Shown here piece by piece: positions 15,459-33,696 of a stretch of 33,696 nucleotides of DNA. How positions within the stretch are numbered: position 1 is the stretch's first letter; each line of letters begins with the position of its first letter. The notes beneath the pieces are model-generated. The model searched no databases. It had not been told where the DNA came from and saw nothing but the letters and a program-made list of their open reading frames with translations. This stretch comes from Nitrospira sp. (GTDB lineage Bacteria; Nitrospirota; Nitrospiria; Nitrospirales; Nitrospiraceae): NCBI GenBank assembly GCA_013696305.1, contig JACCYV010000262.1:1-33696 (forward strand), read 5' to 3'. The position numbers and the translations under genes are program-made.

Positions 15459-17452
15459 AACAAACACTGGTTGGTGTTCATCCGCTGCTGAGTGTGACGG
15501 TGATTGCCGGGTTGTTAGGGTGGGCCGGGTATGGGCTGGCTGCCGCGCCAGCCGAGACAACCGGACTACCTGGGTTCACTCAGGCCGCCGATCAAGGCAC
15601 AGCAGTTCCGTTGGCAGCGCTAGCACTCGACACCGAGCCTGCCATGGTCGTTGGCCCCGTGGCAACTATGTTGAGGAAGGTTGAAGCCAAGCCTGACGGG
15701 AGTCGGATGGCGTTGGTCCTGACGGGCAACGGCGTGCTCTCCCATACGGTGAAGATGATAGGGGATCGTCGGATGGTCCTCGATATGCCGCATATTCAGT
15801 CGGATGCACACCAGTCGCATTTAATTGTCGGTCACCCCCTGCTGTCGCGAGTTCGGTTTGGGTACCATCCCGATAAAATTCGACTTGTGCTGGATTTGAC
15901 GCAGCCCATCGCCCACACCATCGATTCGTCCGACGGCTACCTGATTGTCACCCTGGCGCCAAAGTCGGTTGTCGCCCTGAATGAGCCGGCAGTTGCGGAC
16001 ATTGGTCTGACGCCGTGGTCCGAGTCAGAGGCAGAGCGCCGGGGGTCGTTCGAAGGACGACGGTCCGCGGCTCATCCGATGCTGGTCGCCCACAAGTCAC
16101 CGAAGGCCTTGTTGCATATTCAACCCATCCAACTCACGACTGAGTCGTTTCAGAAAGAAGAAAAGAAGTCAGACACCGGTAACGAAGTGGTGAACGGACC
16201 TTCACGGTTTGTCGGCCGGCGCATTTCGCTCGATTTCCAACAAGCCGATATCAGCAACGTGTTGCGATTGATCGCCGAGGTCAGCGGGTTCAACATCGTG
16301 GTCGGTGAGGGTGTCAAAAGCAAAGTCACCATGAAGCTGGCGAATGTGCCTTGGGATCAGGCGCTCGAGATGCTCCTGAAGATGAATGCGCTTGGTATGA
16401 TCCGGCAGGGAAATATCGTGTGGGTCGACACCCTGCAAAATATTTCTAAACAACAAGACGAAGAGGCGCACGCCAAGGACTCCAAGGCCAAGGCCGAGCC
16501 GATCGTCACGCGCGTATTTTACATCCGAAACCTCAATGCGATGGAAGTGCAAACATCGCTGCGGCAAAACTTGAGTCCGCGCGGGACGATGACCGTCAGC
16601 GCGGCGAGCAATGCCCTCATTATTAGCGATACGGAATCTAAGCTGGAAGTTCTGCGGCAATTGCTCGATGGCGTGGATCTTGAGGTGCCACAAGTGCAGA
16701 TCGAGGCACGCATCGTCCAGGCGGATACGACCTACACACGTTCGCTCGGTGTCCAGTGGGGCATCTCAAACGTCAATCAGTTGGGAGCCTCGAGTGGAAC
16801 GTCTGCATTCAGGACCGGGACGACGGGGGCATTCGGTGCCCAGGTCTCGGATTTTCTCATCAACTTGCCTGCAAACCCTGGATTGCCATCCGTGCCAGGA
16901 GCCGGATTTTCGATCGGGAAAACCGATGGTGCGCTGTTGGACTTGCGGCTATCGGCCGGTGAATTGCTGGGATTAACGAAGGTCATTGCGGCGCCTAAGA
17001 TCACTACGCTGGATAAACGAGATGCCAAGATTGCGCAAGGAGAGTCCATCCCGTTTCAGACCACCTCTTTACAGGGAACGCAGACCACGTTCGTGGATGC
17101 AAACCTGGAGCTGAACGTGACTCCTCAAATCACCTCGCGGGATCCGAAGGAGGTCGGCAAGCAAATTCTCATGAAAGTTCGAGCCACTAGAAATGCCGTC
17201 GGTGCGCGGAGTAACCCCGCCGGTCCAAGCATTGACCGTCGCGAGGCCACAACGCAGGTGTTAGTGCGCGATGGGGAGACGATGGTCATCGGCGGTGTCT
17301 TCGTCGATACCCAATCCAACAACGTGGCGGGTATCCCGTATCTGTCACGGATTCCGGTCTTAGGATGGTTGTTCAAGAGCAAGACCGAGAACGTCTCCAA
17401 ACAGGAGCTCTTGATCTTTCTGACGCCGACCATTGTCCGATCCACAACTTGA
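15455..17452 (+). CDS. pilQ: Type IV pilus secretin PilQ (AMIN + secretin domains)
   Basis: ISLDFQQADISNVLRLIAEVSGFNIVV; secretin core VPQVQIEARIVQ ... GIPYLSRIPVLGWLFKSKT ... ELLIFLTPTIV. Confidence 0.95.
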   Translation: MKQTLVGVHPLLSVTVIAGLLGWAGYGLAAAPAETTGLPGFTQAADQGTAVPLAALALDTEPAMVVGPVATMLRKVEAKPDGSRMALVLTGNGVLSHTVKMIGDRRMVLDMPHIQSDAHQSHLIVGHPLLSRVRFGYHPDKIRLVLDLTQPIAHTIDSSDGYLIVTLAPKSVVALNEPAVADIGLTPWSESEAERRGSFEGRRSAAHPMLVAHKSPKALLHIQPIQLTTESFQKEEKKSDTGNEVVNGPSRFVGRRISLDFQQADISNVLRLIAEVSGFNIVVGEGVKSKVTMKLANVPWDQALEMLLKMNALGMIRQGNIVWVDTLQNISKQQDEEAHAKDSKAKAEPIVTRVFYIRNLNAMEVQTSLRQNLSPRGTMTVSAASNALIISDTESKLEVLRQLLDGVDLEVPQVQIEARIVQADTTYTRSLGVQWGISNVNQLGASSGTSAFRTGTTGAFGAQVSDFLINLPANPGLPSVPGAGFSIGKTDGALLDLRLSAGELLGLTKVIAAPKITTLDKRDAKIAQGESIPFQTTSLQGTQTTFVDANLELNVTPQITSRDPKEVGKQILMKVRATRNAVGARSNPAGPSIDRREATTQVLVRDGETMVIGGVFVDTQSNNVAGIPYLSRIPVLGWLFKSKTENVSKQELLIFLTPTIVRSTT

Positions 17453-17478
17453 CAGGTCCTCACGCGACGAGCTAATAA

Positions 17479-17519
17479 TCGCCTCCATTGACGATGGCAC
17501 GCCATCTCAATGGAGGCGA
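17479..17519 (+). terminator. Strong hairpin downstream of pilQ (candidate terminator)
   Basis: TCGCCTCCATTGA / TCAATGGAGGCGA (13 bp) enclosing GATGG-CACG-CCATC, with one bulged C; no T-tract. Confidence 0.55.
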
Positions 17520-17732
17520 ATCCCGCGGAACGTGTCTCCTCGCTGTCTCAAGGCGCTCCTTCCGGGCTTTCCCTCACAGCCGACATAGAAAATCATGAGC
17601 GTGTCCCTCAGCCAAATTGGCTAGGCGTGCGGGCCTCAAAAACTGTGAGGTCTGGTACATGCGCACCGTGAACATTCTCTCCGCTTCCTCTGAGAGGATG
17701 AGGACCCACGCCGGCCCTCTGATTCGCTCCTT

Positions 17733-18878
17733 ATGACAGCTTCTCCTACCGACATATCCCAACAAACCATTCATGTAGAGCTTGGAACGCGGAGCTACGC
17801 CATCCTCATTCGGCGCAATTTATTGGAGGCCATTGGAGAAGAGCTGACGCGGCTTCGCTGTACCGGAAAAGTGGGGGTGGTCACCGATCGGAATCTGGCG
17901 GGATGCTATCTTAATCAGGTAAAGCGTGTATTGAAGGCAGCCGGCTATACGGTCATCCCGATCGTGCTTCCTCCTGGGGAACGGACGAAAACTCTTCGCT
18001 CCATTGCGATGGTCATGGATGCATTGGTGGAGGCAAGGTTTGAACGTACCTCGACGTTGCTGGCACTCGGGGGCGGTGTAATCGGCGATCTGACGGGATT
18101 CGCCGCAGCGATCTACCAACGCGGTATACCCTTCGTGCAGGTCCCGACCAGTTTAGTGGCTCAAGTCGATTCCAGTGTCGGCGGAAAGACGGGGGTGGAT
18201 CATCCGAAAGGAAAGAATCTGATCGGCGCGTTCAATCAGCCGCGCGTGGTCTTGATCGATCCCGCGACGTTGAGCACCTTGCCGCCGCGTGAATGGAAGG
18301 CGGGGCTGGCGGAAGTCATCAAATATGGGGTCATTGCAGACGAGGGGTTCTTTGAATATTTGGAGCAACACATCGAGCCGATCCTGAAACTGGACGATGC
18401 CTCTGTCGCACAGATCGTGAAACGATCGTGTGAAATTAAGGCGCTGATCGTATCAGAAGATGAACGTGAATCGGATCGGCGCCGAATTCTGAATTTCGGT
18501 CACACGATCGGCCACGCGCTGGAATCGCTGGGGGGGTACTGCGGATTGATTCACGGTGAGGCGGTGGCGATCGGGATGGTGCATGAAGCGGATTTGGCGA
18601 GGCACTTGGGATTGTGCGGCGAAGACGTGGTGACCCGCCTGCGTGCATTGGTCGAGGCCGTCGGCTTGCCGACCGGTTTCCCCCCCGTCGCGTTCAGCGT
18701 ACTCTGGCGGGCCATGCAGCAGGACAAAAAGGTGTCGGCCGGGACGGTGTATTGTGTGGTGCCTGAACGAATCGGGTCGGTACGCATCGTCCCTTTACAG
18801 AAAGACAAGACCCGCGCATGGTTCGATACGATTCGCTCTCGTGAGAGAGACCTCGCAACCAAGCGACGTGTCCGGTAG
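17733..18878 (+). CDS. aroB: 3-dehydroquinate synthase
   Basis: LALGGGVIGDLTGFAAAIYQRGIPFVQVPTSLVAQVDSSVGGKTGVDHPKGKNLIGAF; RRILNFGHTIGHALE. Confidence 0.96.
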   Translation: MTASPTDISQQTIHVELGTRSYAILIRRNLLEAIGEELTRLRCTGKVGVVTDRNLAGCYLNQVKRVLKAAGYTVIPIVLPPGERTKTLRSIAMVMDALVEARFERTSTLLALGGGVIGDLTGFAAAIYQRGIPFVQVPTSLVAQVDSSVGGKTGVDHPKGKNLIGAFNQPRVVLIDPATLSTLPPREWKAGLAEVIKYGVIADEGFFEYLEQHIEPILKLDDASVAQIVKRSCEIKALIVSEDERESDRRRILNFGHTIGHALESLGGYCGLIHGEAVAIGMVHEADLARHLGLCGEDVVTRLRALVEAVGLPTGFPPVAFSVLWRAMQQDKKVSAGTVYCVVPERIGSVRIVPLQKDKTRAWFDTIRSRERDLATKRRVR

Positions 18879-18884
18879 GAGAGT

Positions 18885-20144
18885 ATGGCAGCGAAGCGGA
18901 CAGTCACTCAGCTGGAACAGGCCTTGCGTGAAAAAACGCGTGAGGTCGACGTTCTGCATCGCATCAGCGAGTCGATCAGCAACACCCTCGACCTGGAGTC
19001 GGTTCTTCGGCATATCGTCGAGATGGTCGTGGAAGTGACCAAGGCCGATGCCTGTCTGCTGTACCTTATCTCCGACGGCCGGGACGAACTTATTTTGCGA
19101 GCCTCGAAAAACCCTCATCCCAAACTGATCGGTCGGATCACCATCGGATTGGGCGAAGGGATCACCGGCTGGGTGGCGAGGGAACGGACCCGTGTGGTGA
19201 TTCCGAATAGTGCGAGCGATGATTCGCGGTTCAAGTTTTTTCACAATCTCCCCGAAGATCGCTACCAGGCGTTTGTTTCAGTGCCTATTACGACCAAGCA
19301 GGAAGTCGTCGGAGTCATCAATGTGCAGCATAAGCGGGCGCGCCGGTATCGTCCTGACGAGCTGGCACTGCTCTCGACGATCGCCACACAGGTGGGAGGG
19401 GCTATCGAGAACGCCCGGCTGTACGATCAGATGACACGCAAGGCCTTGCAACTCGATACGCTGTCACAGGTGTCGGAAACCGTGTCGTCGAATCGATTGA
19501 TCGAGGATGTGTTGCAATTGATTGTGACGATGACGGCGCAAATGATGGGGTCGAAAATTTGTTCCATCATTTTGTTGGACCAGACGACGGGCGAACTGCG
19601 CATCGCAGCCACGCAAAGTTTGAGCGAACAGTACCGGCGCAAACCTCATGTGAAGATCGGCCAGAGCATCAGCGGGCGTGCCGTTCAGGATCGTCGGCCG
19701 ATCATCGTGCCGGACGTCACGACAGACAGTACCTATATGTATCCCGATATGGCGGCGAAGGAAGGGCTGTGTTCCCTTCTGTGTGTGCCGATGCTGGTGC
19801 GGGAGAAAGCCATTGGGGTCATCAACACCTACACTTCCCATTCGCATGTCTTTACGAACGAAGACGTGAAATTGATGCAGGCCATCGCCAATCAGGCTGC
19901 GATTTCAATCGAGCATACGACATTGCTGGAAAAGTCTTTTGAAATGCAGGAGGCGTTGCAAGTCCGCAAGCTTCTCGATCGGGCCAAAGGATACTTAATG
20001 CGATCGAAGCGGTTGTCGGAAGAGGAGGCCTTCAAGTTGATTCAGCGACAAAGCATGGATCTTCGCAAATCCATGCGAGAGATAGCTGAAGCTATTCTGC
20101 TGGCCGCTGAAATTGAAGATCGAGCCGACAAAAACAGAGGATAG
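18885..20144 (+). CDS. Tandem GAF-domain ANTAR transcription antitermination regulator
   Basis: Two GAF-like segments (about aa 25-165 and 180-335), then a C-terminal ANTAR domain: VRKLLDRAKGYLMRSKRLSEEEAFKLIQRQSMDLRKSMREIAEAILLAAE. Confidence 0.88.
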   Translation: MAAKRTVTQLEQALREKTREVDVLHRISESISNTLDLESVLRHIVEMVVEVTKADACLLYLISDGRDELILRASKNPHPKLIGRITIGLGEGITGWVARERTRVVIPNSASDDSRFKFFHNLPEDRYQAFVSVPITTKQEVVGVINVQHKRARRYRPDELALLSTIATQVGGAIENARLYDQMTRKALQLDTLSQVSETVSSNRLIEDVLQLIVTMTAQMMGSKICSIILLDQTTGELRIAATQSLSEQYRRKPHVKIGQSISGRAVQDRRPIIVPDVTTDSTYMYPDMAAKEGLCSLLCVPMLVREKAIGVINTYTSHSHVFTNEDVKLMQAIANQAAISIEHTTLLEKSFEMQEALQVRKLLDRAKGYLMRSKRLSEEEAFKLIQRQSMDLRKSMREIAEAILLAAEIEDRADKNRG

Positions 20145-20148
20145 CCTA

Positions 20149-21111
20149 TTACGGGGTGCGATCTGCAGGCCGCGCAGGCCGTGATTTTTTTGAGGGCGCC
20201 GCGTCACGTTTGGTCTGCTGCTCGCTCAGCTGCCGTTTGATCTCCTCGAGTTCCTTCCGCAATTCCTCGACTTCCGAATCTTTCTTTTTCAAGCTTTCTT
20301 TAATGGTTCGAAGATCGGTATCGGTCTCCGCAGGCCGATCCGGATGCAGGGTTGGAGACGACTGCGAACTCTCTAGTGAGAGCCCCGTAAGGGGCGCGGG
20401 GATCAACGAGGCGGGCAGTTTCGCGAGCGCGTCATAGTCGATCACAAGAACATTGGTTGAGTCATCGGCCAGGGCTGGTGTGAACTGATCAGAACGCAAC
20501 GCTTCCGCAGGCACAAACAAGACCTGCCGATTGAGAAGTCCCTTCGGCTGTGGGAGGCGGCGATTCGGCATGTTGATCGTGTCAGGTTCGTCCCGCCGCT
20601 GCCGGTACTCGGTCAGAGAGATATAGAGTGAACGGCCGTACGCGAACACATGGCCGGTGGTGGTTTCTTTGGCTGATAGCTGCAGTGGTGGTTCCGAGGA
20701 GCCGACTGCCGCGCCTGCCCGCTCCCGGTATCCCCCTTCACTTCCCCTTAGCAGCCGAAAACCCACCTGTTGATCCGCGGCCGCTTGCTTCAACCCTTCT
20801 GCAATGGCGGGAGCGAGAAAGGCGACTTCAGTTCCTGAAAAGACCGGCACGGTCGGCTTCTGATTCGCGGCCAAGGCCCGCAGGAGCCCGGTTTCTTCAC
20901 GGATCATTATGCCCTGTAAGCTGCGCGCGATCAGACCCTGGTCAAGTCGAATGGGATGGGTCGCCTGGAACTGGCGATCGGAAATGCGATCCAGATAGAC
21001 CGTGCCTTGTGCAGATTCGCGGACGATACTGTCGACTCGCGAACCGGTCGTGCAACCTACGGCCGGCAAAACCAAAACGAAAACAAGGGCGGCAGTCCGA
21101 CAGCCATGCAT
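20149..21111 (-). CDS. Lipoprotein with C-terminal coiled coil, unknown function
   Basis: Signal with lipobox (MHGCRTAALVFVLVLPAVGC); C-terminal heptad-like segment (TIKESLKKKDSEVEELRKELEEIKRQLSEQQ). An upstream start at 21147 is possible. Confidence 0.75.
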   Translation of the reverse strand: MHGCRTAALVFVLVLPAVGCTTGSRVDSIVRESAQGTVYLDRISDRQFQATHPIRLDQGLIARSLQGIMIREETGLLRALAANQKPTVPVFSGTEVAFLAPAIAEGLKQAAADQQVGFRLLRGSEGGYRERAGAAVGSSEPPLQLSAKETTTGHVFAYGRSLYISLTEYRQRRDEPDTINMPNRRLPQPKGLLNRQVLFVPAEALRSDQFTPALADDSTNVLVIDYDALAKLPASLIPAPLTGLSLESSQSSPTLHPDRPAETDTDLRTIKESLKKKDSEVEELRKELEEIKRQLSEQQTKRDAAPSKKSRPARPADRTP

Positions 21112-21205
21112 GCGAGGTGGTTCCTTCTTCGTAGGCTCAGCGCGCAACGAGGCAGTGTATCACAGAGAAAATCGTAAGAGGTGAGGAACTCATCGTGAAC
21201 CTTGC

Positions 21206-21235
21206 TTGACAGCAACGCTTTCGAAAGCGTATACA
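21206..21235 (+). promoter_or_regulatory. Predicted sigma70 promoter of porin/urt leader
   Basis: TTGACA (21206-21211), 18-nt spacer, TATACA (21230-21235). Spacer contains the perfect palindrome ACGCTTTCGAAAGCGT (21215-21230). Confidence 0.6.
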
Positions 21236-21255
21236 CCCCACCTGTGTGCGTCGCG

Positions 21256-21318
21256 GGTCAGGACAATGACGTCCTACCTTGTTGTCGACATCAATAATGC
21301 CGAGGACAATGACGTCCT
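21256..21318 (+). ncRNA. Candidate ANTAR-binding dual-hexaloop RNA leader
   Basis: AGGAC-AATGAC-GTCCT at 21260-21275 (extendable by GGT/ACC across one bulged C) and again at 21303-21318. Both are 6-nt loops with A1 and G4. Confidence 0.85.
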
Positions 21319-21355
21319 TTTGGTCCGATGGTTGGACCGGAAGGGCGTTTTTTTT
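21312..21355 (+). terminator. Intrinsic terminator overlapping second hexaloop hairpin (antitermination target)
   Basis: ACGTCCTTTTGGTCC (21312-21326) pairs with GGACCGGAAGGGCGT (21334-21348) over 15 bp with 3 G-U; 7-nt loop; T8 at 21348-21355. Confidence 0.88.
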
Positions 21356-21413
21356 CGTGATGGCTCTCCGGTCTATCTCATGCGAATCGTCTCTAACCGG
21401 GAGGGCTATCAGG

Positions 21414-22784
21414 ATGAATGCACGTATATCAGGAGCAATCGTACTGGGGGCGATCATCATGATGATCGCGGCCGTCGCGAGTTCGGTCTGGGCAGAGGAT
21501 CAGAGCGCCGGAGAGGCGGCGGGAGCCGGTCAACGACTTCGGGAAGTGGAGACCCCGCCCGCGGTGATTTGCGGCGGCTGTGTCAGTCCCACCTTCGCGG
21601 GCGAAGGCAAGGGTAGCATCGTCCCGTATGGTCGCATCGAACTGGATGCGATTTATAGCACCCGAAATACGAACCCGCTCGATCCCGGTCAGTTCAATGG
21701 CTATGCGACCGCCGCCGGCAAAAGCAGCAATGCGTCCTCAACCCTCAATCCTCGCTATAGTGTCTTCGGCCTGCGAGCCGACCGGACGGATGGGACACAC
21801 ACGCTCACGGGCGTCGTAGAAGCGGACTTCTACAGCCAGACCGACAATGCCGGAAACATCTCACCCCGCCTGAGATTGGCCAACGTCAAATATTCTCCGA
21901 ACAACAGCCGGACGACTATTACGGCAGGCATGGATTGGACGCCGATCATGTCGTCTCACCCGAACCTCGTCGATTTCTCCATCATGGGTTATAACGGGAA
22001 TTTGTGGCAACGCCTTCCGCAGATCACGGTGAAACATCAGTTTAACGACAATGTCAACGGCTTGTTAACGGTCATGCGATTCGAGCGCGGGCTGTCGGCC
22101 ATTCAGCCGCAGACGCAGCGGCGGACTTTTCAAGGGGCCGGTGCGGCGGCGGCGGTGCCGGGCAGTTGCGGAGGAAGCGGCTTCGCCTGTTCCGAAAACG
22201 CATTCAACGACCCGGTGCAAATGCCGTATGTCGGCACTCGGTTCGCGTACACGGGAACGGGTGATCAGGCGGGCTATATGGTGGCACTGAATGCCGCCTT
22301 TCGGCACTACCGATCCGCGCCTACCGCCGGGGGGATCCCCGCCGGCAATGACATTAACTCATACCTCGTAGGGGCGGAACTTGCGGTGCCCTTGACCAGC
22401 CGGTTGAAATTTACCGGCGAGGTTGCCTATGGGCAAGCGCTCGGGGTTGAATTCTTTCGCTATGGACAAGAGCGAAATCTTGGCACAGGAAAGGCGATCC
22501 GCACGGTGGTCGGTTGGGGAGAACTGGATTACGCCTATGATCGGCGGCTCACACTTATCGCCGGCTATGGATTCGACAATCCGCTGAATTCCGATTTGAA
22601 GGGAACCAGTGCCGGCCCCGACACCCAATATGTGCTCAATCATCGGACCTACTTGACGGCCGTTCGCCATATTTGGGGCGACTTGTACGCGTCGTTGGAG
22701 TGGAATCACCTTATGAGCGAATGGTCGACCGGTGAGCATTTTGCCGGGGATAATTTTATGCTCTCAACTTGGTACAACTTTTAG
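21414..22784 (+). CDS. Outer membrane beta-barrel porin, probably for urea/short-chain amides
   Basis: Signal peptide (MNARISGAIVLGAIIMMIAAVASSVWAED), repetitive amphipathic beta strands, C-terminal aromatic (WYNF); directly upstream of urtA. ORF track start (21279) lies inside the leader. Confidence 0.75.
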   Translation: MNARISGAIVLGAIIMMIAAVASSVWAEDQSAGEAAGAGQRLREVETPPAVICGGCVSPTFAGEGKGSIVPYGRIELDAIYSTRNTNPLDPGQFNGYATAAGKSSNASSTLNPRYSVFGLRADRTDGTHTLTGVVEADFYSQTDNAGNISPRLRLANVKYSPNNSRTTITAGMDWTPIMSSHPNLVDFSIMGYNGNLWQRLPQITVKHQFNDNVNGLLTVMRFERGLSAIQPQTQRRTFQGAGAAAAVPGSCGGSGFACSENAFNDPVQMPYVGTRFAYTGTGDQAGYMVALNAAFRHYRSAPTAGGIPAGNDINSYLVGAELAVPLTSRLKFTGEVAYGQALGVEFFRYGQERNLGTGKAIRTVVGWGELDYAYDRRLTLIAGYGFDNPLNSDLKGTSAGPDTQYVLNHRTYLTAVRHIWGDLYASLEWNHLMSEWSTGEHFAGDNFMLSTWYNF

Positions 22785-22812
22785 CCCGGAATGGCGTCGA
22801 AAGGAGTTCACG

Positions 22813-24177
22813 ATGATCTTTCAGAAACCACACGGTGCGGATGACTCGATACCTACCGCGACGAATGAGGCCCCGTCCTCGCGGCGCGATTTTTTGTGGC
22901 AGAGTTCACGAACCGCAGTCGGGATCGGAGTCGCGGCCTTGCTGGGAAACCTGGGCCGTTGGGCGCTGTCCTACGGAGCCGACAAGGAGCCGATCAAGAT
23001 CGGGGTGTTGCATTCGCTCAGCGGCACGATGGCGATCAGCGAAGTATCCTTGAAAGATGTCGTGTCGATGGCGGTCGAAGAAATCAACGCAAAGGGCGGC
23101 CTGTTGGGGCGTTCACTGAAGCTGGTGATCGTCGACCCGGCCTCGAACTGGGATCTGTTCGCAGAGAAAGCCAAACAATTGTTGGTGCAAGATAAGGTGG
23201 CAGTAGTCTTCGGCTGCTGGACGTCGGTCAGTCGGAAATCTGTGTTGCCGGTGTTTGAAAAGAACAACGGCTTGCTCTTCTACCCCGTGCAGTATGAAGG
23301 GGAGGAGTGCTCACGGAACGTGTTCTACACCGGCGCGGCGGTCAACCAGCAAGCCGTCCCGGCCGTGGAGTATCTGATGAGCAAGGAAGGGGGCGGGCAC
23401 AAAAAGTTCTACCTGCTCGGGACCGACTACGTCTACCCGCGGACGACGAATAAAATTCTTCGCGCCATGTTATTGGCCAAGAAGGTGCCCGCAGGCAACA
23501 TCATGGAGGAGTACACGCCGTTTCATCATCAGGACTATCAGACCATCGTAGGGAAAATTAAGAAATTTTCAGCCGGAGGAGGCGCCTGCGTCATCAGCAC
23601 CATCAACGGCGATAGCAATGTACCATTCTATAAAGAGTTTGCGAATCAGGGACTGCGCGCCGAAGATGCGCCGATCATGGCATTCAGCGTCGCGGAAGAC
23701 GAACTGCGCGGGATGGACAAGACGGCGCTGGTCGGCCATCTGGCGGCCTGGAATTATTACCAGAGCGTGGACACGCCGCAGAACAAGCAGTTTGTGGCCA
23801 ACTTCAAGGCCTATTGCAAAAAAAATAATCTGCCGGATGGCGACAAGCGTGTCACCGACGATCCGATCGAAGCCGCTTATTTTGGCGTGCATGTCTGGAA
23901 GCAGGCGGTGGAGAAGGCCGAGAGCACAGAGGTGGATGCGGTACGCAATGCCGTCTATGGACAGAAATTCCTTGCACCGGGCGGAGACATCATGATGGAT
24001 GATGTCAACCACCATACCCACAAGCCGGTGCTGATCGGCGAAATTCTCAAGGATGGGCAAATCAAGGTCGTCTGGAAGTCGAAGGGATTGGTCAAACCGG
24101 AACCGTGGAGCGAATACACGAACCCGGAAAAGGGGTGCGATTGGGTGAAACATCAAGGGACCTACAAGAAAGCCTAA
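22813..24177 (+). CDS. urtA: Urea ABC transporter substrate-binding protein
   Basis: Tat-like signal SSRRDFLWQSS; IKIGVLHSLSGTMAISEVSLKDVVSMAVEEINAKGGLLGR. Confidence 0.96.
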   Translation: MIFQKPHGADDSIPTATNEAPSSRRDFLWQSSRTAVGIGVAALLGNLGRWALSYGADKEPIKIGVLHSLSGTMAISEVSLKDVVSMAVEEINAKGGLLGRSLKLVIVDPASNWDLFAEKAKQLLVQDKVAVVFGCWTSVSRKSVLPVFEKNNGLLFYPVQYEGEECSRNVFYTGAAVNQQAVPAVEYLMSKEGGGHKKFYLLGTDYVYPRTTNKILRAMLLAKKVPAGNIMEEYTPFHHQDYQTIVGKIKKFSAGGGACVISTINGDSNVPFYKEFANQGLRAEDAPIMAFSVAEDELRGMDKTALVGHLAAWNYYQSVDTPQNKQFVANFKAYCKKNNLPDGDKRVTDDPIEAAYFGVHVWKQAVEKAESTEVDAVRNAVYGQKFLAPGGDIMMDDVNHHTHKPVLIGEILKDGQIKVVWKSKGLVKPEPWSEYTNPEKGCDWVKHQGTYKKA

Positions 24178-24217
24178 CGACGGGCCGGGTATCGGGTGCG
24201 GACGAGGGAAGCGGCGA

Positions 24218-25759
24218 ATGAGGCGCGTGGTCTGGATTGCGTTGGTCTGGTGGAGCGTGGCATGGGTCGTGACCGACGTGCCGGCGGCGGAGGCACTCAC
24301 GGGTGCCTCTCCGCCGTCTCCGCTTGAGCAAGCATTGCAGGCTCTGTACAGTGACGAGGAGGCGACGCGAGAGCAGGCGGTTCGTGTGCTGATCGAACAG
24401 GGCGATGCGACGCTCCTGCCACGCTTGGATGAGTTGCGGGCCCATGCGGATCGAAGCCTCCGCATGGCGATCAAGCCGGTGGCCGATGCGTGGCGACACC
24501 GCGACGACTTGGCCAGCCCGGATGCCGATATAAGGCGTTCGGCGGCAACCGACCTCGGGACGAGCGGTCGGGCGGTGGCGATTCCCTGGCTGGAGGCCGC
24601 GGCAGGCTTTGAATCACACCATTGGGTTCGTTATGCGATGGACGAGTCGGCACAGTTGCTGAAGCTCGCCTCCGACGATCCGGCCATCAAGGCCCAGGCC
24701 GCGACGAAACTGGGCGAACTGCGCAGCCAGAATGCAGTGCCGGCATTGAAAGCACTGGTGCAGGCGGCCGAGGAATCAGGTGGGACTGAGCAGCAGAAGC
24801 CCCTTGCGCGGGCCGCTACGGCCGCCATTGACCGGATCGAAACCTGGAACGTCTGGTCGACGGCGATCGAAACCGTGTTTCGCGGCATCAGCCTGAGTTC
24901 CATCCTCCTCATCATGTCCGTAGGGTTGGCGATCGTGTTCGGGTTGATGGGCGTCATCAATATGGCGCATGGCGAACTGATGATGATCGGAGCCTATGCC
25001 ACCTTTGTGATGCAGGAATGTTTTAAACTCTATGTTCCTTCAAGCTGGTTCGACTCCTATTACCTGGCGGCCCTCCCGGCCTCGTTTCTTGCCGCAGCAG
25101 TGTTCGGATTGATCCTGGAAGCGACGGTCATTCGCTTTCTCTACGGCCGTCCCCTCGAAACGATGCTGGCGACCTGGGGTGTCAGCCTGATTCTGATTCA
25201 GGCCGCCCGCATCTATTTCGGTGATTTGACGGCGGTCACCGCTCCGGCCTGGCTCAACGGCGGTGCGCAGGTCATGGTGGGAGTGTTCCTGCCCTTTAAT
25301 CGTCTGTTCATCATCGGCCTCTCCATTCTCTGTGTCATGGGGATTTACGCGTTGCTGTTCCGGTCGAGCCTCGGGTTACGAGTGCGGGCCGTCACGCAGA
25401 ATCGCAACATGAGCGCCTGTCTGGGAATTCCCACCAGAAAGGTGGACGCCTACACCTTCGCCTTCGGGTCCGGTTTGGCCGGGATTGCGGGGTGGGCTTT
25501 AACCCTGGTCGGGAATGTCGAGCCGGGACTCGGTCAAAACTACATCGTGGACTCATTCATGGTGGTCGTGACCGGTGGTGTCGGCAAACTCGCCGGAACG
25601 ATCATTGCCTCATTGGGCATCGGCGGGTTGAATAAATTGATGGAGCCGAGCCTGGGCGCAGTATATGGGAAGGTCTTGATCCTGGTGCTGGTGATTCTCT
25701 TCCTGCAGCGGCGACCCTCAGGGCTGTTTGCCGTCAAGGGGCGTCAGGCCGAGGGCTGA
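24218..25759 (+). CDS. urtB: Urea ABC transporter permease UrtB with N-terminal HEAT-like region
   Basis: N-terminal ~200 aa helical repeats, then LivH-type permease (VGLAIVFGLMGVINMAHGELMMIGAYATFV). Confidence 0.95.
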   Translation: MRRVVWIALVWWSVAWVVTDVPAAEALTGASPPSPLEQALQALYSDEEATREQAVRVLIEQGDATLLPRLDELRAHADRSLRMAIKPVADAWRHRDDLASPDADIRRSAATDLGTSGRAVAIPWLEAAAGFESHHWVRYAMDESAQLLKLASDDPAIKAQAATKLGELRSQNAVPALKALVQAAEESGGTEQQKPLARAATAAIDRIETWNVWSTAIETVFRGISLSSILLIMSVGLAIVFGLMGVINMAHGELMMIGAYATFVMQECFKLYVPSSWFDSYYLAALPASFLAAAVFGLILEATVIRFLYGRPLETMLATWGVSLILIQAARIYFGDLTAVTAPAWLNGGAQVMVGVFLPFNRLFIIGLSILCVMGIYALLFRSSLGLRVRAVTQNRNMSACLGIPTRKVDAYTFAFGSGLAGIAGWALTLVGNVEPGLGQNYIVDSFMVVVTGGVGKLAGTIIASLGIGGLNKLMEPSLGAVYGKVLILVLVILFLQRRPSGLFAVKGRQAEG

Positions 25760-25775
25760 GGATAGAGCAGGCAGA

Positions 25776-26924
25776 ATGGGAGAATCGCTGACACCATCAT
25801 CGAATGCGGAGCGAAACGAAGGCACCATCTTTTGGGTCGTCGGTTTCGTGCTGCTCTTTGTCCTTCCGGTCCTCAACGTGTTGCCGACGGAGAATTCCTG
25901 GCTGCATGTGTCCGATTTCGCGCTGAACCGATTCGGGAAGTTCCTGGCCTTTGCCATCCTCGCGCTCGGCCTCGATTTGATCTGGGGGTACGCCGGCATC
26001 CTCAGTCTGGGACAGGGAGTTTTCTTCGGGTTGGGCGCCTACTGCATGGGGATGCACCTCATGCTCACGATCGGAAACGAAAGTGTCTACGGCAGCGCCC
26101 TGCCGGACTTCATGGTGTGGAATCAAGTCACGGAACTGCCGTTTTTCTGGAAGCCCTTCTACAGCTTCTCTGCCGCTGTATTAGCCGGCCTGTTGGTTCC
26201 GGCATGCTTCGCGCTCGTCTTTGGATTTCTCGCCTTCCGTAGCCGGATCCGCGGCGTGTATTTTGCGATCATCACGCAGGCGCTGGCACTCATGGCGTGG
26301 CTGGTCTTCAATCGGAATGAAACGAATCTGGGGGGCACGAACGGCCTGACGGACTTCAAGACGATCTTGGGATTTCGTCTCTCCGATCCGGGGACGCAGC
26401 TCGCGCTCTACGTCGTCACGGTGCTGTGCCTGGGGGGCGCCTATCTGCTGTGCCGCTGGATCATCGGTTCGCGGGCCGGGCGGGTTCTGATCGCCATCCG
26501 CGACAGCGAGCAGCGCGTGTTGTTTTCCGGCTACTCGCCGGCCAATTACAAACTGTTCGTCTTCGTGGTGTCGGCCGCGCTGGCAGGCCTCGCGGGAATG
26601 CTCTATGTCCCGCAGGTCGGCATCATTACTCCCGCGCAGATGGGCGTCCTGCCGTCCCTCGAAACGGTGATCTGGGTAGCAGTGGGAGGCCGAGCCACCC
26701 TGGTCGGAGCCATCGTCGGAGCTGTGGGTGTGAACCTGGGACGCAGCATTCTCACGAACCACTTTCCAGAATTGTGGCCGTTCTTTTTGGGCGGGCTCTT
26801 TGTGGTCGTGGTCTTGCTGTTTCCCGACGGGGTGATGGGCATCACCAGGACGCTGAGCGAGAAGCTGACGATGTGGAGCGCCCGTCTTCGAAAGGCCCCC
26901 GCTGCGGAGGAGGAGCAGGCATGA
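25776..26924 (+). CDS. urtC: Urea ABC transporter permease UrtC
   Basis: LivM-type permease (LGLDLIWGYAGILSLGQGVFFGLGAYCMGMHL); order in urt operon. Confidence 0.95.
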   Translation: MGESLTPSSNAERNEGTIFWVVGFVLLFVLPVLNVLPTENSWLHVSDFALNRFGKFLAFAILALGLDLIWGYAGILSLGQGVFFGLGAYCMGMHLMLTIGNESVYGSALPDFMVWNQVTELPFFWKPFYSFSAAVLAGLLVPACFALVFGFLAFRSRIRGVYFAIITQALALMAWLVFNRNETNLGGTNGLTDFKTILGFRLSDPGTQLALYVVTVLCLGGAYLLCRWIIGSRAGRVLIAIRDSEQRVLFSGYSPANYKLFVFVVSAALAGLAGMLYVPQVGIITPAQMGVLPSLETVIWVAVGGRATLVGAIVGAVGVNLGRSILTNHFPELWPFFLGGLFVVVVLLFPDGVMGITRTLSEKLTMWSARLRKAPAAEEEQA

Positions 26925-27688
26925 CGGAACATGGCTCCATCATCTATCTGGAAGGCGTGACCGTCGATTATGACGGCTTCAAGGCGTTAAATAGTCTGAA
27001 CTTCATCGTCAATCATCGCGAGCTGCGGGTGGTGATCGGACCGAACGGAGCCGGTAAGACGACGCTCCTCGATGTGATCTCAGGCAAGACCAAACCGGCG
27101 GCCGGGCGCGTGATCTTCGGCAAAGACACGCATCTCATCGGCATGCGGGAGTATGAGATTACGCAACTCGGGATCGGAAGAAAGTTCCAGGCGCCGTCGA
27201 TCTATGGCAATCTGACCGTCTGGGAAAACCTCGATCTCTCGCTGAGCCGTCCCAGCAAGGGCGTGCTGTTTACGCTGAGAGGCCGTTCGACGACAGCGGA
27301 GAGAAACCAGATCGATGAGGCTCTGGAAACCATCGGATTAAAGAATCAGGCGCACCTCCGAGCTGGGTCGTTGTCTCATGGCCAGAAACAATGGCTCGAA
27401 ATCGGCATGGTCATTTTGCAGGATCCGGAATTGCTGCTGGTGGATGAACCGGTGGCCGGCATGACGGACGAAGAGACGGAACAAACCGGACGGTTGCTGC
27501 AGTCGCTGGCGGAGAAACATGCCATCGTCGTCATCGAGCACGATATGGAGTTCGTGCGGCAGATCGCGCGCATCGTCACCGTGTTGCACGAAGGAACCGT
27601 AATTTGCGAGGGGCCGGTAGAGAAGGTGCAGGCTGATCCGCGCGTCGTGGAGATTTATCTAGGCCGCCACAAGGTCACGCATGCCTAG
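26921..27688 (+). CDS. urtD: Urea ABC transporter ATP-binding protein UrtD
   Basis: [37 protein letters not shown]; start overlaps urtC stop. ORF track start (26426) is an artefactual extension. Confidence 0.95.
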   Translation: MTEHGSIIYLEGVTVDYDGFKALNSLNFIVNHRELRVVIGPNGAGKTTLLDVISGKTKPAAGRVIFGKDTHLIGMREYEITQLGIGRKFQAPSIYGNLTVWENLDLSLSRPSKGVLFTLRGRSTTAERNQIDEALETIGLKNQAHLRAGSLSHGQKQWLEIGMVILQDPELLLVDEPVAGMTDEETEQTGRLLQSLAEKHAIVVIEHDMEFVRQIARIVTVLHEGTVICEGPVEKVQADPRVVEIYLGRHKVTHA

Positions 27689-27779
27689 CAGGATGTTGAT
27701 CGCGCTTCCAGCGTCGTTCTCGGCCTGCTGCCTTGCCGGAGGCACTTTGAATATCCTAAGAGAGTAATGTAGCCATACT

Positions 27780-28490
27780 ATGTTGCGGCTTGAGAAGATT
27801 AACGTCTACTACGGCGAGAGCCATATCCTGCGAAACGTCTCCTTTCACATTGAGGCGGGCCAAGTGGCCTGCGTGATGGGACGTAACGGCGTCGGCAAGT
27901 CCACGACGCTCAAGGCCATTATGGGCCTATTGCCGGTGCGCAGCGGGCAAGTCCTTTTCGACGGAGCGGATCTCACGAAGGAGTCGACCGATCGGCGTGC
28001 CAAGCGCGGCCTCGCCTATGTGCCGCAGGGGCGGGAGATTATTCCGCACTTGACGGTGCGCGACAACCTCCAACTCGGTTATTGGGCGCGCGGGACTGCG
28101 GCGAATGGACCGTCCGAAAAGGCCGCCTTCGACGAGGTGTTTACCCTCTTCCCCAAGCTCACGCACATTTTGGAGCGGCCGGGCGGTGTCTTGAGCGGCG
28201 GTGAACAACAGCAGCTCGCGATCGGACGCGCGCTGCTGTCGAATCCAAAGGTGCTCTTATTGGATGAACCGACGGAAGGCATCCAGCCCTCGATCGTCGA
28301 TCAGATTGAAGACGTCATCATCGGGTTCAAGGCGGCCCGTCGGTTTGCAATCGTCCTGGTCGAGCAGGGTCAGCATTTTGCGGCACGATTGGCGGACAGT
28401 TATGTGGTGATGGCCAAAGGAGCGGTGATGGCAGCGGGGAAAAAGGATGAGCTCAGTGCCGAGATGGTGAAGCAGCATTTGACCGTGTAG
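27780..28490 (+). CDS. urtE: Urea ABC transporter ATP-binding protein UrtE
   Basis: GRNGVGKSTTLKAIMGLLP; LSGGEQQQLAIGRALLSNPKVLLLDEPTEGIQPSIV. Confidence 0.96.
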   Translation: MLRLEKINVYYGESHILRNVSFHIEAGQVACVMGRNGVGKSTTLKAIMGLLPVRSGQVLFDGADLTKESTDRRAKRGLAYVPQGREIIPHLTVRDNLQLGYWARGTAANGPSEKAAFDEVFTLFPKLTHILERPGGVLSGGEQQQLAIGRALLSNPKVLLLDEPTEGIQPSIVDQIEDVIIGFKAARRFAIVLVEQGQHFAARLADSYVVMAKGAVMAAGKKDELSAEMVKQHLTV

Positions 28491-28678
28491 ACCGGGGCCA
28501 GAGTGTCTTCCTGGTCGCGCAACGCACGCCCTCAGAAGGCCCTCGTTGGATACGCGCAGTCGAAGACATCCAGATACCGTTCCCGGACTTGTCCCACCCC
28601 AGAAAGAGCTGGGGACTTTGAAAATCATGGTGGCATGGCGTGAGTGGCTGGCAGATTCTTGCTTGCCCAGAGAAACCA

Positions 28679-28707
28679 TTGAACTCATCTGCTCTCCCCG
28701 CTAATAT
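28679..28707 (+). promoter_or_regulatory. Candidate sigma70 promoter for ureABC
   Basis: TTGAAC (28679-28684), 17-nt spacer, TAATAT (28702-28707), in the 470-bp urtE-ureA gap. Confidence 0.5.
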
Positions 28708-28960
28708 TCTCCCGCATCGCCATAGGCAACTGAGGTTGAGAGGTGAGAAGTGAAAGGGTGGGAGGGAAATGGTGCGACGTGCGAGAGATTTGGACCATCA
28801 GGAAAACAGGCGACGTGGGCGGTGTTTTTTCTGCTGAGTGTCCAATGCTCCTGCGCAACTGCCCAATACACTTCTCTCGCAGGTGCCGAGAAGGATCAGG
28901 TTGAATAGCTCAGGCGGTTTTGAAGAACGAGTAACGAATGTTGTGTGACGAGGGCCAACC

Positions 28961-29263
28961 ATGCATCTGACACCGCGTGAACAGGAAAAGCTGCTGATCT
29001 ATGTGGCGGCGAATCTGGCCAAGGATCGCAAGGGGCGTGGTCTGAAGCTCAACCATCCGGAAGCAGTCGCGTATATCACGGCCGAGATTCTGGAAGGGAT
29101 TCGTGACGGCAAGTCGGTATCGGAATTGATGAGCCATGGCGCCGCGCTGCTCACTCGCACAGATGTCATGTCCGGTGTACCGGAAATGATCCCGGAACTG
29201 CAGGTTGAAGGCACCTTTCCAGATGGCACGAAGCTGGTGACCGTGCATGAGCCAATCCGATAG
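28961..29263 (+). CDS. ureA: Urease subunit gamma
   Basis: [53 protein letters not shown]. Confidence 0.97.
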
Positions 29264-29291
29264 GTGACAGATAAAAAAGAAAGCAAAGGCT

Positions 29292-29735
29292 ATGGTGAAA
29301 AAATCTCGATCACAGGCGGCCCCCGCATCCAGTAAGCGCAATGTACTAAAGCCTATCCTCATCATTCCCGGCGAAGTCATCCTCGGTGAGGGCGACATCA
29401 TTGCCCTGCATGGCCGGCAGACCATTGAGCTAACCGTGTCCAACACCGGCGATCGGCCGATTCAGGTGGGGTCGCATTGTCATTTCTTAGAGGCCAATCG
29501 TGCGCTCAAGTTCGATCGTGAGAGCGCCTATGGATTTCGCTTACAAGTCCCGGCCGGGACTGCGGTGCGGTTCGAGCCTGGTGAAGCGAAGCGGGTCATG
29601 CTGGTGGCACTCGGGGGCAATCGTGTGGCCTATGGCATCAATGGTCTGGTGAACGGCAAACTGGATGATCCGGACGTGCGTGAGAAGGCGCTTGCGTCAG
29701 CTCGAGATCAGGGTTTCATCGGGAGGAATGGGTAG
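29292..29735 (+). CDS. ureB: Urease subunit beta
   Basis: [61 protein letters not shown]. Confidence 0.97.
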
Positions 29736-29764
29736 AGACCCGGCCCTTGTATGAGAAAGGAGAG

Positions 29765-29888
29765 CGGCTGCTCAAAACGGTCATCCAACGAGGCCGTAGG
29801 CAAAGCCAGAGTCGTAGTCGTACCCTTGGGGGTACGTTGAGGACTCTGACAAACCGAGAACGAAGTTGGGGCCCGTTTTCAACAACTG
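29765..29888. repeat. Foldback (MITE/REP-like) element copy 1 between ureB and ureC
   Basis: Imperfect ~120-bp palindrome around CGTACCC-TTGG-GGGTACG; similar to the reverse complement of 31624-31743. Confidence 0.7.
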
Positions 29889-29894
29889 ATTAAA

Positions 29895-31622
29895 ATGAAA
29901 ATTCCACGTCGACAATACGCCGATCTGTACGGCCCGACCGTTGGGGATCGTATCAGGCTGGCCGATACGGATCTGCTGGTCGAAATCACGCGCGATTTGA
30001 CCGTGCCTGGGGAAGAGGCCAAGTTCGGTGGCGGCAAAGTCATCCGCGACGGGATGGGACAGTCTCCGGCTGCCACTAGAGCCAAGGGTGCGCTGGATCT
30101 CGTCATCACGAATGCCATCATCATCGATTGGTGGGGCGTGGTGAAGGCCGATATCGGAATTCGCGACGGACGGATTGCCGGCATCGGCAAATCAGGGAAT
30201 CCCGATCTGATGGACGGTGTCACGAAAGGCATGGAGATCGGGCCTTGCACGGAGGTGTTGTCCGCCGAAGGAAAAATCATCACGGCCGGTGGGATTGATA
30301 CGCACATCCACTTCATCTGTCCGCAGATCATCACCGAGGCGTTGGCCAATGGACTGACGACGCTCATCGGGGGAGGCACAGGACCCGCGACTGGAACGAA
30401 CGCCACGACCTGCACGCCGGGGCCATGGAACATTCATCGCATGCTGGAGGCGGCGGACGGCTTTCCGATCAATTTGGGATTCCTGGGCAAAGGCAATTCG
30501 TCCCTGCCTGAAGGATTGAACGAGCAGGTCGAGGCAGGTGCCATTGGTTTGAAGCTGCATGAGGATTGGGGCACGACACCGGCCGCCATCGACACCTGTC
30601 TGAATGTGGCGGAACGTTACGATATTCAGGTGGCGATCCATACCGATACGATCAACGAGGCCGGGTTTGTCGAGGACACGATCAAGGCCTTCAAGGGCCG
30701 GACGATTCACTCGTTTCATACCGAAGGCGCAGGCGGTGGTCATGCTCCGGATATTATCAAGGTCTGCGGCGAGGCGAATGTCTTACCCTCCTCGACGAAT
30801 CCCACCATGCCCTTCACGATTAATACGATGGATGAACATCTCGACATGCTGATGGTGTGCCACCATCTCAATCCGCGTGTGCCTGAAGACATCGCCTTTG
30901 CCGAATCGCGTATCCGTCGTGAAACCATTGCCGCCGAGGACATTCTGCATGATCTTGGCGCGATCAGCATTATGTCGTCCGATTCACAGGCGATGGGGCG
31001 AGTCGGCGAGGTCATCATCCGCACCTGGCAGACGGCACACAAAATGAAAGTGCAGCGGGGGCATTTGTCGGAACGCGGCATCGACAAGCGTGATGGCCAA
31101 CATGACAATTGGCGCGCGCGACGGTACGTGGCGAAGTATACGATCAATCCCGCCATCGCGCATGGGGTGGCTCATGAGGTGGGATCTGTCGAAGTGGGCA
31201 AGCTGGCGGATCTTGTGTTGTGGAAACCAGCCTTCTTCGGGGTGAAGCCTGAAATAGTAATCAAGGGCGGCTTCCCCATGTCGGCGGCGATGGGCGATCC
31301 CAATGCTTCGATACCGACGCCCCAGCCCGTGCTGACGAGACCGATGTTTGGAAGTTTTGGCCGTGCGCCCTTCTCCACGAGCCTGACCTTTCTTTCTCAG
31401 AAAGCCTTGGAGCGAGAGGTGCCGAAACAGCTGGGATTGCAGAAACGCGTCACGGCGGTCAAGGGCTGTCGAACCATCGGCAAGCGCGATCTGAAATTGA
31501 ATGATGCGTTGCCGAGGATAGAGGTCGATTCCGAAACCTACGAAGTGCGCGCGGACGGAGAATTGCTCACATGCGAACCGGTGGAGGTTCTTCCCATGGC
31601 TCAACGCTACTTCTTGTTTTGA
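29895..31622 (+). CDS. ureC: Urease subunit alpha (catalytic)
   Basis: [22 protein letters not shown] (carbamylated Lys), [22 protein letters not shown]; active-site residues retained. Confidence 0.98.
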
Positions 31623-31623
31623 C

Positions 31624-31743
31624 GGCTGCTGAAAACGCCGTCCAGCGGCGTTCTCACCTTGAACGCATCTTCAACGTACCCCAAGGGTACGCCTCCGGTG
31701 CGTTCGTCGGCTGCGGCCTTGCTGGACAACGTTTTGATCAGCC
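31624..31743. repeat. Foldback (MITE/REP-like) element copy 2 between ureC and ureF
   Basis: Imperfect palindrome GGCTGCTGAAAACG...CAACGTTTTGATCAGCC around GTACCC-CAA-GGGTAC; inverted relative to copy 1. Confidence 0.7.
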
Positions 31744-31777
31744 TAGCGATCCTAACCTATCCGTATAGAGTAACAAC

Positions 31778-32464
31778 ATGAATACTATCTCTCTTCTGAC
31801 AGGCCTCCGGTTCATCGACAGCTTCTTCCCCTCCGGGGGATATGCCTACTCGTCGGGGTTGGAAGCGGCGGTGCAAGACGGCGCGGTGCGCACGGGCGAC
31901 GAACTCTCTCATTATGTGGAGGATATGTTTCGCCAGGGTGTGGCGCACCGCGAGGCGGTAGCAGTGGGAGTGGCCCATACGGCTCTTCTTCGTGATGACA
32001 TTCAGCCTGCGCTATCCGTCGATCATGAGCTGCATGCGATGAAGATCGGGTATGAATCGCGAGTGGCGAGTCAGCAGATGGGACGGCAGGTCGTGAAGAT
32101 CGCTATTGAACAGCCTGCCGCGCATGCCGTCCTGAAGGATTTTTTTGCGGCGATCGAGGCTGATCGCACGCCGGGTCATTTCCCCGTCGCCCTGGCGTTG
32201 ACGTTGGCTCATGCCGGCTGGGATAAAACCGAAACCATCGCCGCCTTCTGTTATCAGACGGCCATTGGGTTCGTGTCCGCTGCTGTAAAGCTCTTGCCGA
32301 TTGGCCAGCGGGAGGGGCAGCATCTGCTGGAGCGTTGGATGCCGTTGCTCGATGAATGTGCAAAAAGTGCGGCTGAGTCGAAGAGGATGACCGCTTGGTC
32401 GCCGATTCAGGATATTTATGCCATGCGACACAGCAGGCTGGAGTCGCGGCTGTTTCGATCCTAA
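31778..32464 (+). CDS. ureF: Urease accessory protein UreF
   Basis: LLTGLRFIDSFFPSGGYAYSSGLEAAVQDG. Confidence 0.95.
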   Translation: MNTISLLTGLRFIDSFFPSGGYAYSSGLEAAVQDGAVRTGDELSHYVEDMFRQGVAHREAVAVGVAHTALLRDDIQPALSVDHELHAMKIGYESRVASQQMGRQVVKIAIEQPAAHAVLKDFFAAIEADRTPGHFPVALALTLAHAGWDKTETIAAFCYQTAIGFVSAAVKLLPIGQREGQHLLERWMPLLDECAKSAAESKRMTAWSPIQDIYAMRHSRLESRLFRS

Positions 32465-32470
32465 ACGCCT

Positions 32471-33142
32471 ATGCATCGAGAAGATGAACACGTTTGTGGA
32501 AGCGGCCGCCCGACCGACGCGCGCGCCAAGGGCATACCGATCGTCGGGATCGGAGGGCCGGTCGGATCAGGCAAGACAGCGCTTGTCGAGGCGCTCTGTT
32601 TGAAATTGCGAAACCACTACAGCTTGGCGGTGGTGACCAACGACATTTTTACCAAAGAAGATGCGGAGTTTCTGACGAAACGCGGGGCTCTTCCACAGGA
32701 TCGCATTCTCGGGGTTGAAACCGGCGGCTGTCCCCACACCGCGATTCGCGAAGATGCCTCTCACAATCAGGCCGCGTTGGACGATTTACTTCGGCGACAT
32801 CCGGACGTGGAACTGATGTTCGTCGAAAGCGGCGGCGACAATCTGGCCGCCACCTTCAGCCCTGAACTGGTCGATCGCGTCATCTATGTGATCGATGTGG
32901 CTGCGGGAGACAAGATCCCTCGCAAGGGCGGGCCGGGGATCACACGCTCGGACCTCTTGGTGATCAATAAAATCGATCTGGCCCCGCATGTCGGGGCGGA
33001 TCTCGCGGTGATGGATCGAGACAGCCGGCGGATGCGCGGCGATCTGCCGTTTATCTTCACCAACCTCCATACGGGCGACGGCCTGGACCGGGTGATCGAA
33101 TGGATCGAACAGGCCCTCCCGTTGCCCGCGCATCATCACTAA
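32471..33142 (+). CDS. ureG: Urease accessory GTPase UreG
   Basis: [61 protein letters not shown]. Confidence 0.97.
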
Positions 33143-33156
33143 ATGCCCGGCCATCC

Positions 33157-33696
33157 GTGCCTACTCTGCTCTCTCACCGGTCTGCCCTGTCGGAAGTCGG
33201 GCGTGTAGGTCGGCTCGATCTGCACTACCAGCGGCAGGGCCGGCGGACCATCCTGGCCAAGTCACGCTGCTCCAGTCCCTGGCATCTGTTTCCTCCCATG
33301 TATTTGGATGCTACCGGTTGCGCGTTTAGCACCCTCGTCAATCCATCAGGCGGACTGGTGGCCGGCGATCATCTCGCTATTCATGCGTCGTTGGAATGTG
33401 ACGCCCATGTCGTGCTCTTCACTCCGTCGGCGAATCGGGTCTATCGCTCATTGGGTGAAGAGGCCAGGCAGACCGTGAATCTTTCCGTCGCTTCAGGAGC
33501 GGTACTCGAATGGTTCCCGGAGGTGACCATCCCGTTCGCCGGCTCGCGTTTTATTCAGACGATAGTCGTGACTCTCGCTAAAGGAGCGACGGCGCTCATC
33601 TGGGACAGTCTCGCCTCCGGCCGAATAGCACGGGGAGAACGTTGGGCCTTTGCGTCGCTGAAGAATGAAATTCTCATCACGACCGCGTCCGGAGAC
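33157..33696 (+). CDS. ureD: Urease accessory protein UreD/UreH (partial, runs off window)
   Basis: Translated by hand from GTG 33157: LDLHYQRQGRRTILAKSRCSSPWHLFPPMYLDATGCAFSTLVNPSGGLVAGDHLAIHASLECDAHVVLFTPSANRVYRS; no stop before the window end. Confidence 0.9.
   Translation, partial: MPTLLSHRSALSEVGRVGRLDLHYQRQGRRTILAKSRCSSPWHLFPPMYLDATGCAFSTLVNPSGGLVAGDHLAIHASLECDAHVVLFTPSANRVYRSLGEEARQTVNLSVASGAVLEWFPEVTIPFAGSRFIQTIVVTLAKGATALIWDSLASGRIARGERWAFASLKNEILITTASGD

Follow-up and report, generated by a model that had tools for sequence, protein, structure and literature searches.

A predicted tandem-GAF ANTAR antiterminator and its candidate leader RNAs in the nitrogen-assimilation operons of Nitrospira

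Results

The window—the whole stretch of DNA analysed here, 33,696 nt of contig JACCYV010000262.1 from Nitrospira sp. GCA_013696305.1—carries a regulatory gene, a predicted leader RNA, and a urea transport and urease cluster. The regulatory gene, a 419-aa ORF on the forward strand (18885..20144; ORF call, Pfam, and protein search), encodes a GAF-GAF-ANTAR protein that we predict to be an antiterminator. It begins 7 bp after a forward-strand ORF (17733..18878) that we take to be aroB. This ORF is the conserved upstream neighbor of the regulator by synteny, and the two are probably co-transcribed. On the reverse strand follows a lipoprotein-like gene (20149..21147), divergent from the leader and often found in the same place in syntenic loci, for which Pfam gave no family above the cut-off. 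Such genes are usually divergent from leader-bearing operons, even far from the regulator gene; at locus L059 the gene is duplicated, and at L121 a relative forms part of a unit that a leader heads.

All genes past the leader lie on the forward strand. The first (21414..22784, ATG at 21414) encodes an outer-membrane porin-like protein with a signal peptide recognizable by eye; it is conserved before urtA, and a slightly shortened version of the ORF had no Pfam match. Next come a periplasmic binding protein, urtA-like (22813..24177; Peripla_BP_5, 3e-161), and four ABC transporter genes: a permease with HEAT repeats, urtB-like (24218..25759; BPD_transp_2, 2.5e-40); a second permease, urtC-like (25728..26924; BPD_transp_2, 4.4e-40; start codon uncertain); and two ATPases, urtD-like (26891..27688, start approximate; ABC_tran, 1.1e-28, and BCA_ABC_TP_C, 5.7e-8) and urtE-like (27780..28490; ABC_tran, 7.1e-34). 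The urea assignment of the urtA-like protein is made because it is placed ahead of the ABC genes and the urease genes ureA, ureB, ureC, ureF, ureG, and ureD (28961..33696; Pfam), the last of which is cut by the contig end and resumes on a neighboring contig (G000:C45).

The first-pass annotation had read the regulator as a tandem-GAF ANTAR protein with GAF modules in place of a REC or NIT domain, and had named a profile search and a structure prediction as ways to check this; both bore the reading out. Pfam finds two GAF stretches (GAF_2, 1.2e-46, and GAF, 1e-43), the first at residues 36-175 (18990..19409, forward strand) and the second, placed also from the structure model, at about residues 206-345 (19500..19919, forward strand), with no match to REC or NIT anywhere in the protein. 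The ANTAR RNA-binding domain (PF03861; residues 354-405, 19944..20099, forward strand) matches with an E-value of 3.2e-19 and 68.9 bits against a curated cut-off of 27.3, and a genome-wide Pfam search found this to be the only ANTAR gene in the source genome. Some other genomes carry a shorter second ANTAR ORF of about 200-280 aa (G016:C287:4739-4897; families f12, f14, f15, and f18). The structure model has the order GAF, linking helix, GAF, long helix, ANTAR (pLDDT 80, pTM 0.47; domain arrangement uncertain), and the long helix (residues 325-375) continues into the ANTAR domain, so that a sensing module and a helix stand ahead of it. A Foldseek search with this model ranks tandem-GAF regulatory segments first. 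We aligned the ANTAR domain to EutV (6wsh), NasR (4akk), and Rv1626 (1s8n). The RNA contacts of EutV taken from its crystal structure (PMC8934654)—R142, K143, K149, E160, Y164, M172, and R175—correspond to R361, K362, K368, E379, F383, M391, and R394, and the contact set of EutV and NasR (R142/R340, K149/K347, Y164/W362, and M172), here R361, K368, F383, and M391, is conserved in the regulator orthologues.

What lies between the regulator and the urea genes? A dual-hexaloop leader had been placed there, about 1.1 kb from the gene end, and it proved to be real: the distance to the first hairpin is 1116 bp, and the leader folds with z = -4.8 against shuffles. On the forward strand, a sigma-70-like promoter read from the sequence (21206..21235; TTGACA at 21206-21211, an 18-nt spacer, and TATACA at 21230-21235) has a predicted +1 at about 21242; a stricter promoter scan of the leader reported no match, the -10 having no T at position 6. 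There follow the P1 hexaloop hairpin AGGAC-AATGAC-GTCCT (21260..21275; fold, pattern scan, and covariation in relatives), a 27-nt linker (21276..21302), the identical P2 hairpin AGGAC-AATGAC-GTCCT as putative antiterminator (21303..21318; fold and pattern scan), and an intrinsic terminator (21311..21355) made of an 18-pair stem (21311-21349) and a T-run of eight (U8, 21348-21355). Both AATGAC loops obey the hexaloop rule of A at position 1 and G at position 4. The terminator stem takes the 3' arm of P2; thus, P2 and the terminator are mutually exclusive. The pattern of dual hexaloop plus T-run occurs once in the window, and Rfam models matched nothing in 17000-30000 up to E = 1. A looser pattern that omits the T-run also matches a conserved 46-nt sequence, ACAACGAGGTCTAYGG...CACAACGTSGT, which we took as coding and set aside.

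The same anatomy recurs in relatives. Folding forms P1 in 63 of 66 leaders, and the terminator takes the P2 arm in 64 of them. That set had been picked with a stem filter, and the pairing test was redone on 72 leaders picked by loop and closing pairs only; the outer P1 pairs 3 to 7, disregarded in picking, lie far above shuffles and are made up of several kinds of base pair; P2 hardly varies. In the filtered alignment (A2), the P1 covariation score is 0.342 versus 0.149 for shuffled alignments, and the number of cells changed on both sides is 49 versus 9.5. Intrinsic terminators are common, and the hairpins might be nothing else—ordinary terminators or attenuators without an ANTAR role, their hexaloops coincidental—but this is scarcely credible given constant loops on varying, covarying P1 stems and the fixed order promoter-P1-P2-terminator, and the P1 covariation together with the near-absence of leaders from genomes without ANTAR (see below) largely refutes it already. 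Almost every one of the 66 leaders has a consensus-like promoter immediately before it, with a best score of 10.5 against 7.3 for shuffled sequence, and control can therefore rest at termination. The -10 elements of these promoters (TATAAG, TATACA, or TATAGA) depart from the usual sigma-70 consensus in lacking the T at position 6, which could be a Nitrospira-specific promoter feature.

The leaders vary in their linkers and in one loop position. The P1-P2 linker has a median length of 27 nt (range, 14-53 nt). In the Enterococcus faecalis eut leaders, by contrast, linkers measure 5-12 nt, and a linker of 14 nt was enough to cut induction drastically (PMC3369931). The 27 nt of the source leader thus fall outside a limit that belongs to eut and does not define the family; the covariance search of the same study allowed a variable linker. 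A structured linker that would shorten the distance between P1 and P2 was rejected, the linkers being unstructured on average (mean z of -0.15 over 63). The explanation is either a longer reach of the ANTAR dimer in Nitrospira or a less strict form of the handover model of PMC8934654. In a minority of lineages, one hexaloop starts with G instead of A (G1), frequently in the leader just after the regulator gene. That G4 is constant and A1 variable fits the crystal structure, which shows a contact to G4 but none to A1 (PMC8934654). A further element, with three hexaloops and a terminator, precedes a 189-aa ORF without a family (L147:787-809, reverse; L128:1574-1596, reverse; G032:C159:11123-11199). 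It occurs in distant genera, including the regulator-less genome G117, and is possibly mobile.

Which genes stand behind the leaders? The pairing of a leader with the urt-ure operon stood, but a single-operon scope did not, for the source genome has three leaders, two of them on the neighboring contig G000:C45, which continues the cluster. The first precedes porin-urtABCDE-ureABCFGD in the window; on the neighboring contig, the second precedes nadE-DUF6733-amt-glnB-glnD-glnA and the third nirC-cynS-nirA. Very probably these leader-headed operons form a nitrogen-assimilation regulon of the tandem-GAF ANTAR protein covering urea, ammonium, nitrite, and cyanate. Leaders in relatives also stand ahead of a BBP2 porin with amt, cyanase, and an NMT1-type ABC transporter. 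The leader-bearing cluster agrees with the syntenic nitrogen-assimilation region described in canonical Nitrospira (PMC6311188), for which the literature searched names no ANTAR regulator. The DUF6733 protein, located between nadE and amt in the source genome, lies beside nadE in the nitrogen operon elsewhere too (L102:10940-11941, reverse; L061:9209-10282, forward). Leaders also precede a hybrid sensor histidine kinase (G014, L110:8438, reverse) and a response-regulator gene (G013, L084:1546, reverse), which suggests lineage-specific signaling targets.

How closely do regulator and leader occur together? Among 175 Nitrospiraceae genomes, a protein search found the regulator in 105 and not in 70. 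The strict leader pattern occurs in 92 of the 105 regulator-positive and 9 of the 70 regulator-negative genomes, but requiring A1 in both loops undercounts leaders, because the G1 variant recovers most apparent exceptions. With it the leader is present in 99 of 105 regulator-positive genomes (99/6/9/61), a table for which Fisher p-values overstate the evidence, since the regulator-negative genomes are one clade and thus not independent. The G1-variant pattern was found in none of the leaderless regulator-negative genomes. The first-pass annotation had called the protein the likely cognate trans-factor of the leader and had named co-occurrence as a check; that orthologues do occur with hexaloop-terminator leaders, and that the two were lost jointly, supports it.

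The exceptions fall on both sides. All six regulator-positive genomes without a detectable leader (G133, G135, G137, G147, G148, and G150) carry ammonia monooxygenase (AMO); they are probably comammox clade B, and the regulator-leader circuit is perhaps decaying in them. Six of the nine regulator-negative genomes with a pattern match are assemblies of 72-89% completeness, and the others are G106, G117, and G070. The G106 match is spurious, having no terminator-like stem. The G117 match is a triple-hexaloop element, and its reading as a decayed leader was rejected, as the terminator stem still pairs by eye. G070 retains an ANTAR pseudogene fragment matching regulator residues 1-58; a separate contig of this genome bears the decayed relic of a leader, from which both the terminator and the -10 have disappeared.

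The regulator-negative side is informative about how the pair disappeared. Thirty regulator-negative genomes of one genus were tested, and 29 of them yielded nadE. Where the contig covers the junction, this gene follows aroB directly, and in those 29 genomes neither the regulator nor a dual-hexaloop leader upstream of nadE was found. AMO is present in 48 of 65 regulator-negative genomes of that genus. In the aroB tree, one branch, weakly supported (85/56), sets the regulator-negative genomes apart from the others, and the joint loss of regulator and leader looks like about one event. Isolate names (CG24E, for example) and the division into two clades known from the literature lead us to infer that the AMO-bearing groups are comammox clades A and B; the control system appears to have been lost as a set in the comammox clade A relatives. 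Comammox Nitrospira are described as being without nitrite assimilation and cyanate degradation, with few cyanase exceptions (PMC6311188 and PMC12342949).

A loss confined to a single clade, and the adjacency of the regulator and one leader in many genomes, would also be expected if the leaders were genuinely of ANTAR type but co-occurred with the regulator through shared ancestry of the gene cluster, another factor reading them. We consider this very unlikely: the source genome has no other ANTAR protein, leaders lie also on other contigs and in other operons, those unlinked to the regulator gene are missing too from the regulator-less clade, and in G070 it is an unlinked leader that decayed alongside the ANTAR pseudogene. 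Tandem-GAF ANTAR proteins are also present beyond Nitrospiraceae, but of about 49 ANTAR-bearing genomes there, just 2 showed the strict leader, and no leader was found within 1.5 kb of tandem-GAF ANTAR genes at 25 loci elsewhere in the phylum; two other Nitrospirales loci (L212 and L218) do carry one near such a gene. We thus limit our claim to Nitrospiraceae and a few relatives in the order.

What might the GAF domains sense? The closest profile relatives of GAF1 and GAF2 are the GAFs of PtsP (EI-Ntr) and NifA, both of which report carbon/nitrogen status. GAF1 matches the NCBIfam PtsP model (1.2e-38 over residues 24-182) and is close as a single domain to the PtsP GAF 3ci6 (Foldseek TM by target, 0.87), and GAF2 matches the nifA model (3.2e-28 over residues 188-402). 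Glutamine and 2-oxoglutarate are the reported signals of PtsP (PMC5024086), and binding of 2-oxoglutarate is reported for the NifA GAF (PMC2937029). Family likeness of a GAF is no proof of its ligand; even so, GAF similarity and regulon scope suggest nitrogen status, rather than urea itself, as the likeliest input. The moderate transcription of urea genes in N. moscoviensis without urea (PMC6606698) fits nitrogen-status control and not urea induction.

Two other inputs would work through the same antitermination machinery. The GAFs may dock the PII protein GlnB and read nitrogen status via PII uridylylation: glnB and glnD lie within the operon of the second leader, and an action of PII has been reported on NifA, whose model GAF2 matches, and probably extends to the AnfA GAF (PMC12093980). 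The likeness of GAF1 to PtsP, for which small-molecule sensing is reported, speaks against docking, which we regard as possible but somewhat doubtful. Less likely still is an inorganic substrate or a redox or gas signal—nitrite, nitrate, NO, or Cys/metal chemistry in GAF2. NasR does sense nitrate and nitrite (PMC7496416), and there are weak matches to NreA (profile) and to DevS GAFs, but the regulon serves assimilation and combines urea, ammonium, cyanate, and nitrite genes, and nitrite is an ever-present energy substrate of these cells. The Cys pair once singled out in GAF2 (GLCSLLCVPM) is present in the source protein but is not conserved as a pair: Cys296 is kept in 72 of 79 orthologues and lends the idea some weight, whereas Cys300 is kept in only 20 of 79, being otherwise Ser, which leaves a redox or metal site at the pair unsupported.

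Discussion

This computational analysis points to a regulator that is, in all likelihood, a one-component antiterminator for nitrogen assimilation with the leaders as its targets. Each target would be transcribed from a consensus sigma-70-type promoter lying shortly before P1. In the default state, the emerging leader RNA would fold into the terminator, swallowing the 3' arm of P2, and transcription would stop. Under nitrogen limitation, reported by the tandem GAF module—presumably through 2-oxoglutarate/glutamine or the state of PII—an ANTAR dimer would capture the P1 hexaloop and stabilize P2, the terminator would not form, and the operon would be read. The protein would bind the RNA directly, and it would activate rather than repress.

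How does this system compare with known ones? With EutV and the eut leaders of Enterococcus faecalis it shares an ANTAR domain with its RNA contacts, the dual hexaloop with A1 and G4, the overlap of P2 and terminator, and several leaders per genome. However, EutV is a two-component REC-ANTAR protein, whereas the Nitrospira protein has two GAF domains and no REC; the Nitrospira leaders also differ in their nitrogen-assimilation targets and, in some, in the G at loop position 1. NasR of Klebsiella oxytoca (NIT-ANTAR) and its nasF leader are likewise a one-component system for assimilatory nitrogen genes with a two-hairpin leader, and the aromatic at the position of NasR W362 is kept as F in the Nitrospira regulator. 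In place of NIT, however, the latter has GAF-GAF, and its regulon spans several operons, including urea, ammonium, glutamine synthetase, and PII genes. The outputs of the GAF relatives differ as well: PtsP acts by phosphotransfer and NifA by sigma-54 activation, neither by RNA binding. The main text of Ramesh et al. 2012 (PMC3369931) predicts that, in other bacteria, ANTAR leaders precede genes for ammonium and urea transporters, PII, nitrite reductase, and glutamine synthase; it does not mention Nitrospira and states that GAF-ANTAR proteins are uncharacterized. Compared with that main text, the present analysis ties together protein, leaders, and joint loss. To our knowledge, no target regulon had been predicted before for a GAF-ANTAR protein, although the supplement to that paper may list a Nitrospira leader.

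Nitrospira are globally important nitrite oxidizers and comammox organisms, and the literature searched names no regulator of their nitrogen assimilation genes. The chances seem to us about even that a tandem-GAF ANTAR protein sensing nitrogen status is the master regulator of nitrogen assimilation in nitrite-oxidizing Nitrospira, acting purely at the level of termination and with a relaxed RNA geometry of long linkers, and that the circuit was discarded in the comammox clade A lineage, whose energy metabolism supplies ammonium. If true, the system would offer a test of how far apart ANTAR hairpins may lie. How these organisms choose among urea, cyanate, nitrite, and ammonium becomes directly testable, now that a candidate regulator and its leaders can be compared with a clade that appears to have lost them naturally.
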